Shown piece by piece: positions 4,814 through 26,988 of a stretch of DNA of 37,102 nt (positions within the stretch are counted from its first letter, which is position 1; each line of letters starts with the position of its first letter). The notes beneath the pieces are model-generated. The model worked only from the letters and a program-made list of their open reading frames with translations. It was not told the origin of the DNA and did no database searches. Location: the NCBI GenBank assembly GCA_903946745.1, contig CAJAWW010000055.1:1-37102 (forward strand). Direction: 5' to 3'. This DNA comes from an uncultured beta proteobacterium (lineage in GTDB: Bacteria; Pseudomonadota; Gammaproteobacteria; Burkholderiales; Rhodocyclaceae). The position numbers and the translations under genes are program-made.

Positions 4814-7006
4814 TCAGCCTTTGTCGCGCAAAATTTGTTGCAGCAGGATGATTTCCTCGGCAACCTCTTGTGGGAAGCCTGCACGGGTGCCGTCGCGATT
4901 GTCGCTCAATAGGTCGGTCAGGAAGGCTTCGCATTCTGGTGTACGCCAAACGCGCTGCAATTGCTCGGACAGATGGCGGTATCCGGTCAGTGATTGTGCC
5001 AATGAAGGATCCACGACGTCATCCCAGCCGCGCGGTTGCACATTGAGGTGCTGTCGCAGATTTTGCGCCAGCGCATCGAATTCGTCGCGCTGCCCGGTTT
5101 TGCGGTAAATCTCTAGCGCCTTGAGCCATGGCATGGCGTCGCGTTTGGGTTCCTGGTAAATGTGTTCGACCAGTGTGCGTGCGGCTTCTTTTGCCAAGCC
5201 CATCGATTCCATGATGCTTGCAAGCTCAATGGCATCGTCCATGCCGGAATTGCCGCTGTCCGGCGTTTCCAGTTGTTTGATCGTTGTGGTTGCCGGTGCG
5301 GTTTCGGTTTTTTCTGAGTTGCCGAATAGTGCGGGTAGCGTGAAATTGATCGGCGCGTTGAGCGCCGGATCAACGGGCTGGCGAGGCTCAAGAGTGGGCG
5401 CCGGCGGGACGGTTGTCGGCACGGGTGTTGGTAGCGTCGGTGCGGGTTTTGGTAGCGTTGCTGCGGGTACCGCCTGTACCGGTGAGGGCTGAACCGGTGC
5501 CGGGGGTGGTTTCAGCGTCGGTGCTTGTGCGATCACAGGTGTGCTCGCAGGCGCGATCGGATCAGAAAAGACGAGCGACGTCATCAGATCTTCAGCCGGT
5601 GCATGGGGTGCTGGGGGGGGCGGGTTTGTTACGGGCGGCGGTTGCCAGGGGAGGGCGCTGTTCTCGTTTTCGCGGGGGATTGCAGCAGTGCTTGGGGCCG
5701 TGTTCAACGTCAGCCGTTTTACTTGAAGACGATGCTGAAGGCCGAGCAATCCGGCACCGACAGTACCGCCGGCGATGATGAGTGCCAGCAGTTCAAATAT
5801 GCCAAGATTTTTCGGCTCCGGTCGGGCATCGGCCTTCATTTGCTGAAGTTTCTGTTCAGCTTCGAGTTGGCGGGTCTTGGCGTCCAGCGCCACGATGTAG
5901 TCCTTGACCTCGATAAAGGCGGCGGAAAGGGTTTTTAGGTTCTCGCTGAGTTCCAGCTCGGTACGACCCTGATCTTCGACCATGCGTTCCATGCGCTCAA
6001 TGGCACTCGATAGCTCGCGCGGGTTGAGCGGACGCTGTGTGCCTGCGCTATCGCCACCGATGACCAGTCGATCCTTGCGTGCGCTGGGCGTTGCAACGGT
6101 TGCGGTGCTCTCGGTGTTGCGTGTGGCCGGTGCCGGTTTTGGCGGTTGTGCGGGTTTTGGCGTGGGGGCGGGCGGGGGTTCTGGCGCTGCCTTGGCGGCG
6201 CTTTCCGGGGGGGGCAGGTTGGGGGGGAGTGACAGCACGGTGCCGCTCGGAAGCGGTATTGAGCCAATTTGAGTTTTTCCGGCAAAGAGTTCCGGGTTTG
6301 CCAACCCCATCAGGCGCCGATATTCGTCGCGCGTTGCTTGATTTTCCGGGTAGCGGACACGTGCCATCGCGTTCAGGTTGGTGTCGCGTGTGAGTCGCAG
6401 CGATTGCGGGTTGCCCGGCAACGGCGCTGTGGGAGCGATTGCGCTGACCGCAGTGGGGGGCGGTGTGCGTACGGCGGGTGGAGCGGGTGCTGCGGGAGTA
6501 GGAGGGGGCAGCGGTGAGGCTGGAGGTTGGACAGATTTTTCGGGGGGAGATGCTTGCGCCGGAATTATTGTGGGTTCAGGTACATTGGATAAAACCAGAA
6601 AGTCCTTGGCAAGTTCGTTGTTGCAACCGACGACCAGACGAAACTCGATCAGGGGTTCAGTGACAGCGAGCGATGAAACCAGAACGATACGATAGGCGCC
6701 GGGTTTTGTGGTGTCCAGCGTGAGCCGTGCGCTACGGGGGAAAAACTGGCGATCCGGTGTGCCGGGCGGCAGCATCATGCGCACGCAATCAAGCGGTGGC
6801 AACTGTTCGCCGGGGATCAGCGATAGCGGAATTTCCAGTCGCAATGGTTGGCCGATGACGGGGGTGCCCAAGGGCGTGCCCAACCCCATGGCCCAGACGC
6901 CGATGGGAAGGCTTGCGCCAAACAGCGCCAGCGACTGTATCAGGCGTGAGCGCACGAGGCGCGGAGCCTGCGGCAGAGAAGATTTACGAGGCGGACGGGG
7001 GGGCAT
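4814..7006 (-). CDS. fimV: FimV/HubP-like polar hub protein
   Basis: The 730-residue protein has the FimV layout. An N-terminal hydrophobic export segment lies at about 20-40, then the FimV N-terminal motif (GLGTP to IGQPLRLEIPLSL). A Pro/Ala linker precedes a LysM-like region (about 200-256) with LRLTRDTNLNAMARVRYPENQATRDEY split across it. Next come another proline-rich stretch, a coiled coil (335-391), one transmembrane segment (about 401-424), a long low-complexity cytoplasmic linker, and a C-terminal TPR-like cap (about 590-700). FimV-type proteins organise poles, type IV pili and chemotaxis by binding peptidoglycan and cytoplasmic partners. ATG at 7006 is preferred to the TTG at 7018. 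It follows the DUF2863 gene by a few bases. Confidence 0.85.
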   Translation of the reverse strand: MPPRPPRKSSLPQAPRLVRSRLIQSLALFGASLPIGVWAMGLGTPLGTPVIGQPLRLEIPLSLIPGEQLPPLDCVRMMLPPGTPDRQFFPRSARLTLDTTKPGAYRIVLVSSLAVTEPLIEFRLVVGCNNELAKDFLVLSNVPEPTIIPAQASPPEKSVQPPASPLPPPTPAAPAPPAVRTPPPTAVSAIAPTAPLPGNPQSLRLTRDTNLNAMARVRYPENQATRDEYRRLMGLANPELFAGKTQIGSIPLPSGTVLSLPPNLPPPESAAKAAPEPPPAPTPKPAQPPKPAPATRNTESTATVATPSARKDRLVIGGDSAGTQRPLNPRELSSAIERMERMVEDQGRTELELSENLKTLSAAFIEVKDYIVALDAKTRQLEAEQKLQQMKADARPEPKNLGIFELLALIIAGGTVGAGLLGLQHRLQVKRLTLNTAPSTAAIPRENENSALPWQPPPVTNPPPPAPHAPAEDLMTSLVFSDPIAPASTPVIAQAPTLKPPPAPVQPSPVQAVPAATLPKPAPTLPTPVPTTVPPAPTLEPRQPVDPALNAPINFTLPALFGNSEKTETAPATTTIKQLETPDSGNSGMDDAIELASIMESMGLAKEAARTLVEHIYQEPKRDAMPWLKALEIYRKTGQRDEFDALAQNLRQHLNVQPRGWDDVVDPSLAQSLTGYRHLSEQLQRVWRTPECEAFLTDLLSDNRDGTRAGFPQEVAEEIILLQQILRDKG

Positions 7007-23402: not shown

Positions 23403-24838
23403 AAAAAATGCTCTTCGCGCTCGGTATGGCGCTCTCGCTTTGTTCGATGTACGCCGTGCCCCTGCATGCCAAGGATCTGCCCGACTTTACCGAGTTGGTC
23501 GAAAAGCAGGGTGCCTCCGTGGTGAATATCAGTACCACGCAGGTTATCAAGGGAACGCGCGCCGGGCCGCAGTCTCCGTTTGATGAAGATGATCCTGCCG
23601 CTGAGTTGTTGCGCAGGTTTTTCCCGGGACAGATTCCGGGATTTCCCGGTCAGCCGCGTGAATACAAGAACCGCTCGCTCGGTTCCGGATTCATCATCAG
23701 CGCCGACGGCCATATTTTGACCAATGCGCATGTGGTCGATGGTGCCGATGAGGTGCTGGTCAAACTCACCGACAAACGGGAATTCAAGGCCAAGGTGCTG
23801 GGTGCTGACAAACGTACCGATGTAGCGCTCATCAAGATCGAAGCGGGTAATTTACCGGTGGTTCGGCTAGGCGATCCGGCAAAATTGAAGGTGGGCGAGT
23901 GGGTGGTTGCCATCGGCTCACCGTTTGGTTTTGAAAACACGGTGACTGCGGGCATTGTTAGCGCAAAAGGGCGGTCGTTGACGCAGGAAAACTATGTGCC
24001 GTTCATTCAGACTGATGTGGCGATCAATCCCGGTAATTCGGGCGGGCCATTGTTCAACATGAAGGGTGAGGTGGTGGGTATCAATTCGCAGATTTATTCC
24101 CGCTCCGGTGGGTTCATGGGGCTGTCGTTCGCGATTCCCATTGATCTTGCGCTTGAGATACAAGGGCAACTTAAGGCTAAAGGCAAGGTGAGTCGTGGCC
24201 GCCTGGGTGTGGTGATTCAGGAGGTGAGCAAGGAGTTGGCCGAGTCTTTCGGTCTTGGCAAGACACAGGGCGCCTTGGTGGCTTCAGTGGAAAAGGGTGC
24301 TGCTGCCGATAAGGCAGGCGTTGAGGCGGGCGACATTATTCTCAAATTTGACGGTAAGCCGGTGACCGATTCCAGCGATCTGCCGCGTATTGTCGGTGCG
24401 ACCAAGCCGGGCAGCAAGGTGGCGTTGCAAGTCTGGCGCAAGGGAAGCAGCCGCGATCTTGTCGCCACGGTCAGCGAAATCCCCGATGATTCGGGCGCAA
24501 CACGCAACGCGCGACGCGGTGGCAAGCCGGCGGATGCCGCTGCGGCCAACCGTCTGGGTTTGGTGCTGTCGGTACCTACGGCTGAACAGCGGCAGTCGCT
24601 GGGTATCCAGCACGGTCTGATCGTTGAAGATGTGCGCAATGGTGGAACACGCACTGATCTGCGTCCCGGTGACGTTATTCTTTCTCTCATTAACAAGGGA
24701 AGCCCAACCGAGGTGAAGTCAATTCAGCAATTCAACGAACTGCTTTCTGCTTTCGACAAGAGCGCAAACATCACGCTGCTGGTACGTCGTGGCGAAGCGC
24801 AAACCTTCATCACCATCAAGGGGATTTCCGATAAATAA
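23399..24838 (+). CDS. mucD: Do-family periplasmic serine protease MucD/DegP
   Basis: The 479-residue protein has a signal peptide (cut after VPLHA, about residue 24) and a trypsin-like protease domain. The His is in TNAHVVDGADE, the Asp in RTDVALIKIEAG, and the Ser in NPGNSGGPLFN. Two PDZ domains follow (about 265-355 and 380-475; GALVASVEKGAAADKAGVEAGD is the first ligand loop). It degrades or refolds damaged periplasmic proteins and in MucD-type operons limits the sigma-E response. ATGA overlap with rseC shows it belongs to the rpoE operon. Confidence 0.96.
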   Translation: MKKMLFALGMALSLCSMYAVPLHAKDLPDFTELVEKQGASVVNISTTQVIKGTRAGPQSPFDEDDPAAELLRRFFPGQIPGFPGQPREYKNRSLGSGFIISADGHILTNAHVVDGADEVLVKLTDKREFKAKVLGADKRTDVALIKIEAGNLPVVRLGDPAKLKVGEWVVAIGSPFGFENTVTAGIVSAKGRSLTQENYVPFIQTDVAINPGNSGGPLFNMKGEVVGINSQIYSRSGGFMGLSFAIPIDLALEIQGQLKAKGKVSRGRLGVVIQEVSKELAESFGLGKTQGALVASVEKGAAADKAGVEAGDIILKFDGKPVTDSSDLPRIVGATKPGSKVALQVWRKGSSRDLVATVSEIPDDSGATRNARRGGKPADAAAANRLGLVLSVPTAEQRQSLGIQHGLIVEDVRNGGTRTDLRPGDVILSLINKGSPTEVKSIQQFNELLSAFDKSANITLLVRRGEAQTFITIKGISDK

Positions 24839-24848
24839 TTGTCCGAAT

Positions 24849-25094
24849 TTGCGCCTGTATAGTCGCGAATACTGCCACCTCTGCCATGACATGCTGACAG
24901 CTCTTGAGGCGCTGCGTGACGAGGCAGAGGTTTTGAATTTCTCTATTACGGTGATTGATGTCGATGCCGACCCGGTGCTTGAGGCCAGATACGACGAACT
25001 GGTGCCGGTGCTGGTCGGCATGGACGATCAGGAGCTCTGCCACTACTTTCTCGATACGGCGAAAGTGCGTGAGTATTTGAACGCTTTCCGCTAA
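24849..25094 (+). CDS. Glutaredoxin-like thioredoxin-fold protein
   Basis: An 81-residue product of the DUF836-type glutaredoxin family, with the redox motif CxxC in LYSREYCHLCHDM. The thioredoxin-fold strand VIDVDADPVLEARYDELVPVLVGMDDQELCHY carries the cis-proline (LVPVL). No ATG is available: a TTG at 24849 gives the family-like beginning RLYSREYCHLC, while GTG at 24789 would give 101 residues by overlapping mucD. Neither has a good Shine-Dalgarno, so translation probably depends on ribosomes ending mucD. Such genes commonly lie between mucD and lepA in betaproteobacteria. Confidence 0.75.
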   Translation: MRLYSREYCHLCHDMLTALEALRDEAEVLNFSITVIDVDADPVLEARYDELVPVLVGMDDQELCHYFLDTAKVREYLNAFR

Positions 25095-25131
25095 AATCCG
25101 GCCTCTGATTTTTGGCCTTCTCTTCACATCC

Positions 25132-25185
25132 AAGGTGCTCAATACGTTGCAATACGTTGCAATACGTTGACTGGGCACCTTTTTT
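25132..25185 (+). terminator. Terminator/attenuator hairpin upstream of lepA
   Basis: AAGGTGCTCA (25132-25141) pairs with TGGGCACCTT (25172-25181), ten pairs including one G-U, followed by TTTTTT (25180-25185). The 30-base loop consists of a triplicated decamer. The T run ends nine bases before the lepA ATG, so upstream transcription must read through it to make lepA mRNA. Confidence 0.8.
25141..25170 (+). repeat. Triplicated decamer in the lepA leader
   Basis: AATACGTTGC occurs twice in tandem and a third time as AATACGTTGA, filling the loop of the terminator-like hairpin. Copy number changes would alter loop size without touching the stem. Confidence 0.9.
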
Positions 25186-25194
25186 GTTGCACCG

Positions 25195-26988
25195 ATGAAA
25201 CTCATCCGTAATTTCTCCATCATTGCCCACATCGATCACGGCAAATCAACGCTGGCGGATCGCATCATCCATCGTTGCGGCGGCTTGTCGGATCGCGAGA
25301 TGGAAGCCCAAGTGCTTGACTCGATGGATATCGAGCGCGAGCGCGGCATCACCATCAAGGCGCAGACCGCAGCACTTTTCTACACGGCGCGCGATGGGCA
25401 GGTGTACAACCTCAACCTGATCGACACGCCGGGGCATGTGGATTTTTCCTACGAAGTCAGCCGCTCCTTGTCGGCCTGCGAAGGCGCGCTGCTGGTGGTC
25501 GATGCGTCGCAAGGCGTTGAAGCGCAGACAGTAGCCAATTGCTACACCGCGCTCGAACTGGGTGTGGACGTGGTGCCGGTGCTGAATAAAATGGATTTGC
25601 CGCAGGCTGATCCGGACAATGCGCGGCAGGAAATTGAAGACGTCATCGGCATCGATGCCTCCGAGGCGATTCCCTGTTCCGCCAAAAGTGGCATGGGCGT
25701 GGATGACGTTCTCGAAGCGGTAATCGCACGCATCCCGCCGCCCAAAGGCGATCCGGCCGCGCCCTTGAAGGCGCTGATTATCGATTCGTGGTTCGACAAC
25801 TATGTCGGCGTCGTCATGCTGGTGCGGGTGGTTGACGGCAGCCTCAAGGCCAAAGACAAAATTAAGCTGATGTCGTCGGGCTCCACCCACTTGTGTGAGC
25901 AGGTGGGCGTGTTCACGCCGAAATCGCTGCCACGCCCGGAATTGCGTGCCGGGCAGGTGGGCTTCATCATCTCCGGCATCAAGGAGATCCATGCGGCGAA
26001 GGTGGGCGACACCGTGACGCTGGTGGATAAGCCCGCCGCTGAGGCGTTGCCCGGTTTCAAAGAGATCAAATCGCAGGTGTTTGCCGGGTTGTATCCGATT
26101 GAATCCAATCAATACGACAGCCTGCGTGATGCGCTGGAAAAACTGCAACTCAACGATGCCTCGCTGCAATATGAGCCGGAAGTTTCGCAAGCGCTGGGCT
26201 TCGGCTTTCGCTGCGGGTTTCTGGGCCTGCTGCACATGGAAATTGTGCAGGAACGGTTGGAGCGCGAGTTCGACCAGGATTTGATTACCACGGCACCAAC
26301 AGTGGTGTATGAAGTGATGATGCGTGACGGCACGCTGATACAGGTGGAAAACCCGGCCAAGTTGCCGGAAATTCAGCGCATGGAAGAAGTTCGTGAGCCG
26401 ATCATCACCACCAAAATTTTTGTTCCACAGGAATATCTGGGCGCGGTGATTACGCTGTGCGAAAGCAAGCGCGGTTCGCAGGTGAATATGGCCTACCATG
26501 GCCGGCAGGTGCAATTGACCTACGACATGCCGATGGCTGAAGTGGTGATGGATTTCTTTGACAAGCTGAAGTCAGTTTCACGCGGCTACGCCTCGCTGGA
26601 TTACGAGTTCAAAGAATATCGCTCGGCCGATGTGGTCAAGCTCGATGTGCTGATTAACGGCGAAAAGGTGGATGCGCTTTCGCTCATCGTGCATCGCGCC
26701 AATGCGCCGTATCGTGGCCGCGAACTAGCTGCCAAAATGCGTGAATTGATCCCGCGTCAGATGTATGACGTGGCGATTCAGGCGGCGATTGGTTCGACCA
26801 TCGTGGCGCGCGAGAACGTCAAGGCGATGCGCAAGGACGTGCTGGCAAAGTGTTACGGTGGCGACATTTCGCGCAAGAAGAAACTGTTGGAAAAGCAGAA
26901 GGCCGGCAAGAAGCGCATGAAGCAGGTGGGCAGCGTTGAAATTCCGCAAGAAGCCTTTCTTGCCGTGCTGCGTGTCGGTGATAAATAA
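25195..26988 (+). CDS. lepA: Translation elongation factor 4 (LepA)
   Basis: The 597-residue GTPase back-translocates or assists the ribosome. G motifs: [25 protein letters not shown] and [11 protein letters not shown]; then the EF-G-like domains and the LepA-specific C-terminal domain ending [23 protein letters not shown] (seen as [11 protein letters not shown]). Start [16 protein letters not shown] matches E. coli. No Shine-Dalgarno is visible because the ATG directly follows the T run of the upstream hairpin. lepB follows after 8 bases. Confidence 0.98.

Follow-up and report, generated by a model that had tools for sequence, protein, structure and literature searches.

Attenuators of the trp, his and pyrBI type place a terminator between a promoter and the first gene, and the lepA leader that we describe here has the same predicted arrangement. 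It differs from them in lacking the devices on which they depend. Among the 72 lepA leaders that carry the unit defined below, no leader ORF is conserved (an ATG occurs in 4 of 72), and antiterminator pairing, scored as a leader/5'-arm duplex, is not above chance (mean -5.0 versus -5.4 for shuffled sequences; 2 of 72 loci at 5%). Taken together, these two results leave classical attenuation unsupported. The E. coli rnc-era-recO leader is cleaved by RNase III. Our locus resembles it in having a leader hairpin ahead of an operon, here also with rnc and era, but the hairpin sits before lepA and its stem of ~8–12 pairs with a U tract is shorter than the usual RNase III substrates. There is also a likeness to the small RNAs produced from 5' UTRs by premature termination, since a short RNA with a U tract at its 3' end is predicted, whereas for the lepA leader this RNA is a prediction, any target would be hypothetical, and there is no Rfam family. 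Naville and Gautheret (2010, PMC2965389) described premature intrinsic terminators and attenuators in the 5' leaders of bacteria. Like the lepA leader in our reading, these combine a promoter, a short leader, an intrinsic terminator and a regulated gene, with conservation over many genera. The lepA leader is far shorter than is typical, with a median of 18 nt ahead of the stem, and we detected neither a sensor nor an alternative structure in it; no lepA leader came up when the main text of that study was searched by term. Within our incomplete coverage of the literature on lepA leaders, premature termination, small RNAs and repeat-bearing terminators, we found no description of a lepA start-then-stop leader, and we provisionally regard the conserved start-then-stop signal before lepA as apparently undescribed so far.

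The lepA gene (EF4) is highly conserved, and both its physiological role and its control are long-standing matters of debate; its operon also contains lepB, rnc and era. A start-then-stop leader would provide a concrete control point for this operon in a large bacterial group, and an example of termination too near the promoter for classical attenuation devices. We analysed the locus in the window, by which we mean the whole 37,102-nt stretch of DNA. The gene order is rseA, rseB, rseC, mucD, a DUF836 glutaredoxin-like gene, lepA, lepB, DUF4845, rnc and era, so the immediate upstream neighbour of the leader is the DUF836 gene (ending at 25094), which the preliminary description had overlooked, rather than the sigma-E operon itself. 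The features of the leader and its flanks are as follows.

24849–25094, + strand: DUF836 glutaredoxin-like gene, between mucD and lepA (Pfam PF05768, E 6e-17)
25089–25097, + strand: extended -10-like element CGC-TAAAAT (CGCTAAAAT; hexamer 25092–25097), putative lepA promoter
25104–25131, + strand: putative transcribed leader 5' of the stem, with a predicted start site ~7 nt past the -10
25132–25141, + strand: terminator stem 5' arm, AAGGTGCTCA, assigned by pairing and by homologous arms in relatives
25140–25169, + strand: three exact tandem copies of CAATACGTTG, each CAA-NNNN-TTG, where relatives have single-copy loops
25172–25181, + strand: terminator stem 3' arm, TGGGCACCTT, assigned by pairing with the 5' arm
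25180–25185, + strand: U tract of six T at the stem base, seen in the sequence; in relatives the T-rich tail is always at the stem
25195–26988, + strand: lepA (EF4; Pfam), with an SD-less ATG nine bases past the U tract; lepB, DUF4845, rnc and era come next

The mechanical ORF of the DUF836 gene spans 24789–25094, with an in-frame C-terminus ending in ELCHYFLDTAKVREYLNAFR before the TAA stop at 25092–25094. Its GTG start at 24789 overlaps mucD, and a TTG near 24849 better matches the family N-terminus (LRLYSREYCHLC) and is likely the real start, judging from the sequence.

The anatomy of the hairpin can be read directly from the DNA and agrees in every detail with the preliminary description, which had reported a ten-pair stem with a six-T run ending nine bases before the lepA ATG, three tandem decamers in the loop and no Shine-Dalgarno (SD) sequence. 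The ten pairs include one G-U, two of the six T pair with the AA of the stem, and the nine bases GTTGCACCG separate the end of the U tract from the ATG at 25195. The decamer earlier given as AATACGTTGC/A is the CAATACGTTG repeat in another register, and the first two bases (CA) of the array belong to the stem. With a G+C-rich stem and a U tract directly after it, the hairpin has the form of an intrinsic terminator; its predicted terminator score is 8.9 and is positive also in relatives. The 131-nt region around the hairpin has a predicted RNA folding energy of -34.2 kcal/mol (z = -3.6), and none of 200 shuffled sequences was equally stable. At the Rfam gathering threshold, the hairpin and leader matched no riboswitch or cis-RNA family. 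Searching Rfam by E-value as well gave only a sub-threshold match to AsrC (23 bits versus a gathering threshold of 111), on the minus strand inside lepA, at 25195–25270. We set it aside as irrelevant to the leader; it probably reflects homology of the Salmonella model to lepA coding sequence.

The most informative feature is an upstream conserved promoter element that the preliminary description missed. The DUF836 TAA stop forms the first half of the TAAAAT hexamer (context TTTCCGCTAAAATCC). The motif TANAAT was found within 200 nt in 119 of 128 distinct lepA upstream regions and in 12 of 128 shuffled ones, and alignment of the -10 region gives the consensus T-C-[C/G]-G-C-TA[A/G]AAT followed by G/C-rich bases. 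No -35 was recognisable in the aligned regions, and strong -35 matches were not enriched. At least 41 related loci have the DUF836 stop (TAA or TAG) embedded in TA[A/G]AAT. Part of the -10 conservation is DUF836 coding constraint where that gene ends there. The hexamer is also retained where it is no DUF836 stop, and TATAAT or TACAAT forms occur at 10 of 77 such loci, versus 0 of 41 in the DUF836 set. We interpret the element as a putative extended -10 promoter for lepA that shares bases with the stop codon of the gene upstream, its promoter activity being predicted from the motif and its conservation.

We assessed how widely the -10 element and the hairpin occur together. Leaders were taken from the best 30 of 41 whole genomes, 80 contigs of named species and the best 30 from a 399-genome family search; removal of duplicates and incomplete leaders left 128 distinct lepA leaders. 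Its relatives in this set suggest that the window belongs to a Rhodocyclales genome. We defined a strict unit as a -10 followed 18–80 nt later by a terminator hairpin that ends ≤60 nt from the ATG. This unit is present in 72 of the 128 leaders, compared with 0 of 128 shuffles and 1 of 416 windows of 200 nt drawn at random from these loci. These controls account for composition and not for relatedness, and the 128 leaders are non-independent yet span many families of Betaproteobacteria. A looser definition (spacing of 12–80 nt and any ATG distance within 200 nt) raises the count to 85 of 128. The ~44% of upstream regions without the strict unit comprise some with an altered or weak hairpin and others with the unit farther from the ATG; Achromobacter and its relatives carry it ~110–200 nt upstream of the lepA ATG. 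In a class-wide sample of 38 lepA leaders, most of them by far from other orders, only 2 have the strict unit. Sequence variation within the stem is compensatory: in 64 distinct hairpins, GC, CG, AT and TA pair types alternate at identical stem positions, and position 5, for example, is CG in 26, GC in 26, TG in 8 and AT in 4. The exact AAGGGTGC...GCACCCTT hairpin occurs at lepA in five relatives, and only there in four of them, with one extra copy in the fifth; being nearly confined to lepA, it is no stock terminator stem of those genomes. We conclude that, at the level of sequence, a promoter element plus terminator is conserved before lepA in many Betaproteobacteria.

The leader lacks an SD sequence in the window, where the best anti-SD pairing of lepA is -2.1 kcal/mol. 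The corresponding energies are -4.8 to -10.7 kcal/mol for rseB, rseC, mucD, lepB, DUF4845, rnc and era, and -3.2 kcal/mol for rseA at its mechanical ORF start. A hairpin-bridged SD (AAGGTG in the 5' arm) was considered but rejected, since the stem sequesters these bases. Across the dataset, 5% of lepA leaders reach an anti-SD energy of ≤ -5 kcal/mol versus 32% of random windows, a difference that partly reflects the T-rich terminator tail. The pattern suggests SD-independent lepA initiation in nearly all betaproteobacterial loci examined.

Our main reading, to which we assign a probability of about 0.68, is that the hairpin works as an intrinsic terminator within the short leader of lepA itself, either leaky or controlled by a factor; we infer promoter activity, termination and the read-through fraction from the arrangement of the motifs. 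A sigma-70-type promoter with an extended -10 (the TAAAAT containing the DUF836 stop) would initiate transcription ~7 nt downstream. RNA polymerase would then reach the hairpin and U tract within ~20–30 nt, and a fraction would stop, releasing a short RNA of ~50 nt in relatives (median 51 nt in the 72 leaders) and ~82 nt here; in the predicted transcript, the G-C part of the stem is preceded by a median of 18 nt in the 72 leaders and by ~29 nt in the window. The fraction that reads through would yield a lepA-lepB-DUF4845-rnc-era mRNA translated from the SD-less ATG, and the terminator may also shield lepA from rse-mucD-DUF836 read-through. Since the leader shows neither a conserved leader peptide nor antiterminator pairing, any control would operate through termination efficiency itself or a trans factor on the polymerase or hairpin, and not via a classical RNA switch.

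This reading modifies the earlier proposal of an attenuator between the sigma-E operon and lepA-lepB-rnc-era. The proposal stands insofar as a terminator-like hairpin, conserved and with covarying stems, separates the two sides; its classical form, with a leader peptide or an alternative antiterminator, is unsupported. The DUF836 gene and the conserved -10 upstream place the hairpin in lepA's own putative leader, on the same strand and between the -10 (without a -35) and the lepA start codon, from where it would attenuate lepA's own putative promoter as well as the upstream operon. A wider generalisation is that Betaproteobacteria share an undescribed minimal lepA-lepB-rnc-era attenuator, with a stop-codon -10, a terminator ~20 nt past the start, no RNA sensor, and read-through governed either by a trans factor or by polymerase behaviour that varies with growth rate; we offer this tentatively and at somewhat less than even odds.

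Several points weigh against our reading: besides the missing -35, the upstream regions without the strict unit and the DUF836 coding constraint on the -10, G-C-rich intergenic terminators are commonplace, and the downstream genes could be expressed from a promoter within lepA or one lying far upstream. The hairpin might then be a plain constitutive terminator of the rse-mucD-DUF836 operon, with lepA and the downstream genes mainly transcribed from elsewhere (an internal or far-upstream promoter) and the -10 a mere DUF836 stop region. The position of the hairpin directly after the DUF836 gene, the absence of a -35 and the stop codon within the hexamer at 41 or more loci would all fit. We nevertheless consider it unlikely, since the order of -10 and terminator is kept where DUF836 does not end there, in Burkholderia and at loci L003, L018, L019, L064, L114 and L130 (with TATAAT versions at L018, L019 and L130). 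Moreover, the stem ends a median of 15 nt from the ATG, and the short stretch after the hairpin, from a few to ~30 nt in most relatives, leaves no room for a later lepA promoter. If transcription does begin at the -10, the product of termination could itself be the functional molecule, a trans-acting small RNA to which lepA read-through is secondary. RNAs of ~50 nt with a 3' U tract are typical of Hfq-bound small RNAs, and the spacing of promoter and terminator predicts just such a product; the sequence from the -10 to the stem, however, appears by inspection to be unconserved between families and has no Rfam family at the gathering threshold, and we judge this quite improbable.

The hairpin could alternatively act on translation, as a 5' stabilising structure with a U-rich ribosome (S1) enhancer of the SD-less lepA mRNA, and not as a terminator. 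It lies close to the putative 5' end, and lepA is SD-less throughout. The position of the U tract helps to separate the two roles. The stem base has a mean of 6.1 T in 8 nt, while the ATG distance ranges from 5 to 59 nt, and the nine loci with the ATG ≥25 nt away have just 1.6 T in the 8 nt preceding it. The U tract thus tracks the stem and not the ATG, which favours termination over a translational role; in addition, the G-C-rich stems directly abut the T run. We therefore give the translational alternative little credence. Less credible still, and in our view very improbable, is a slippage-driven switch in which the tandem decamer tunes lepA expression, as the preliminary description had envisaged. 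Its appeal is that the three copies are perfect, that each is able to form CAA/TTG pairs, and that predicted folding strengthens with copy number (-13.2, -17.5 and -21.2 for one to three copies). The predicted terminator score is nevertheless nearly flat for one to four copies (9.4, 9.9, 8.9 and 7.2), and in the closest relatives the loop is a single 10-nt unit.

The single loop, on a homologous stem, is found at L015, L033, L034, L114, L115, L116, L118 and L119 (the single-copy loci were also recorded as L015, L033, L034 and L114–L119). The L015 hairpin reads AAGGTGCTCA-ACGGCTTGAA-TGAGCGCCTT, and the loops of L033 and L034 are AGGACTTGAT and AGCGTTTGAA. Removing two decamers from the hairpin of the window gives AAGGTGCTCA-ATACGTTGAC-TGGGCACCTT, the same form as the single-loop hairpins of the relatives, so the simplest history is that an ancestor with one copy gained two more. 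The triplicated decamer was seen in one genome only among those examined, other species having one unit. Elsewhere in its own genome the repeat does not recur, and a family search allowing two mismatches (a loose 16-mer) gave matches in most genomes, which is the background level. The triplication is probably a private, lineage-specific and neutral expansion of an ancestral 10-nt loop, and the most striking feature of the leader is in this sense the least important. Within the window, the array is the sole exact triple tandem with a period of 7–15, and five shuffles contained none. The top-scoring tandem array in the window is a 21-bp repeat of 2.6 copies at 5415–5468 (TRF score 73).
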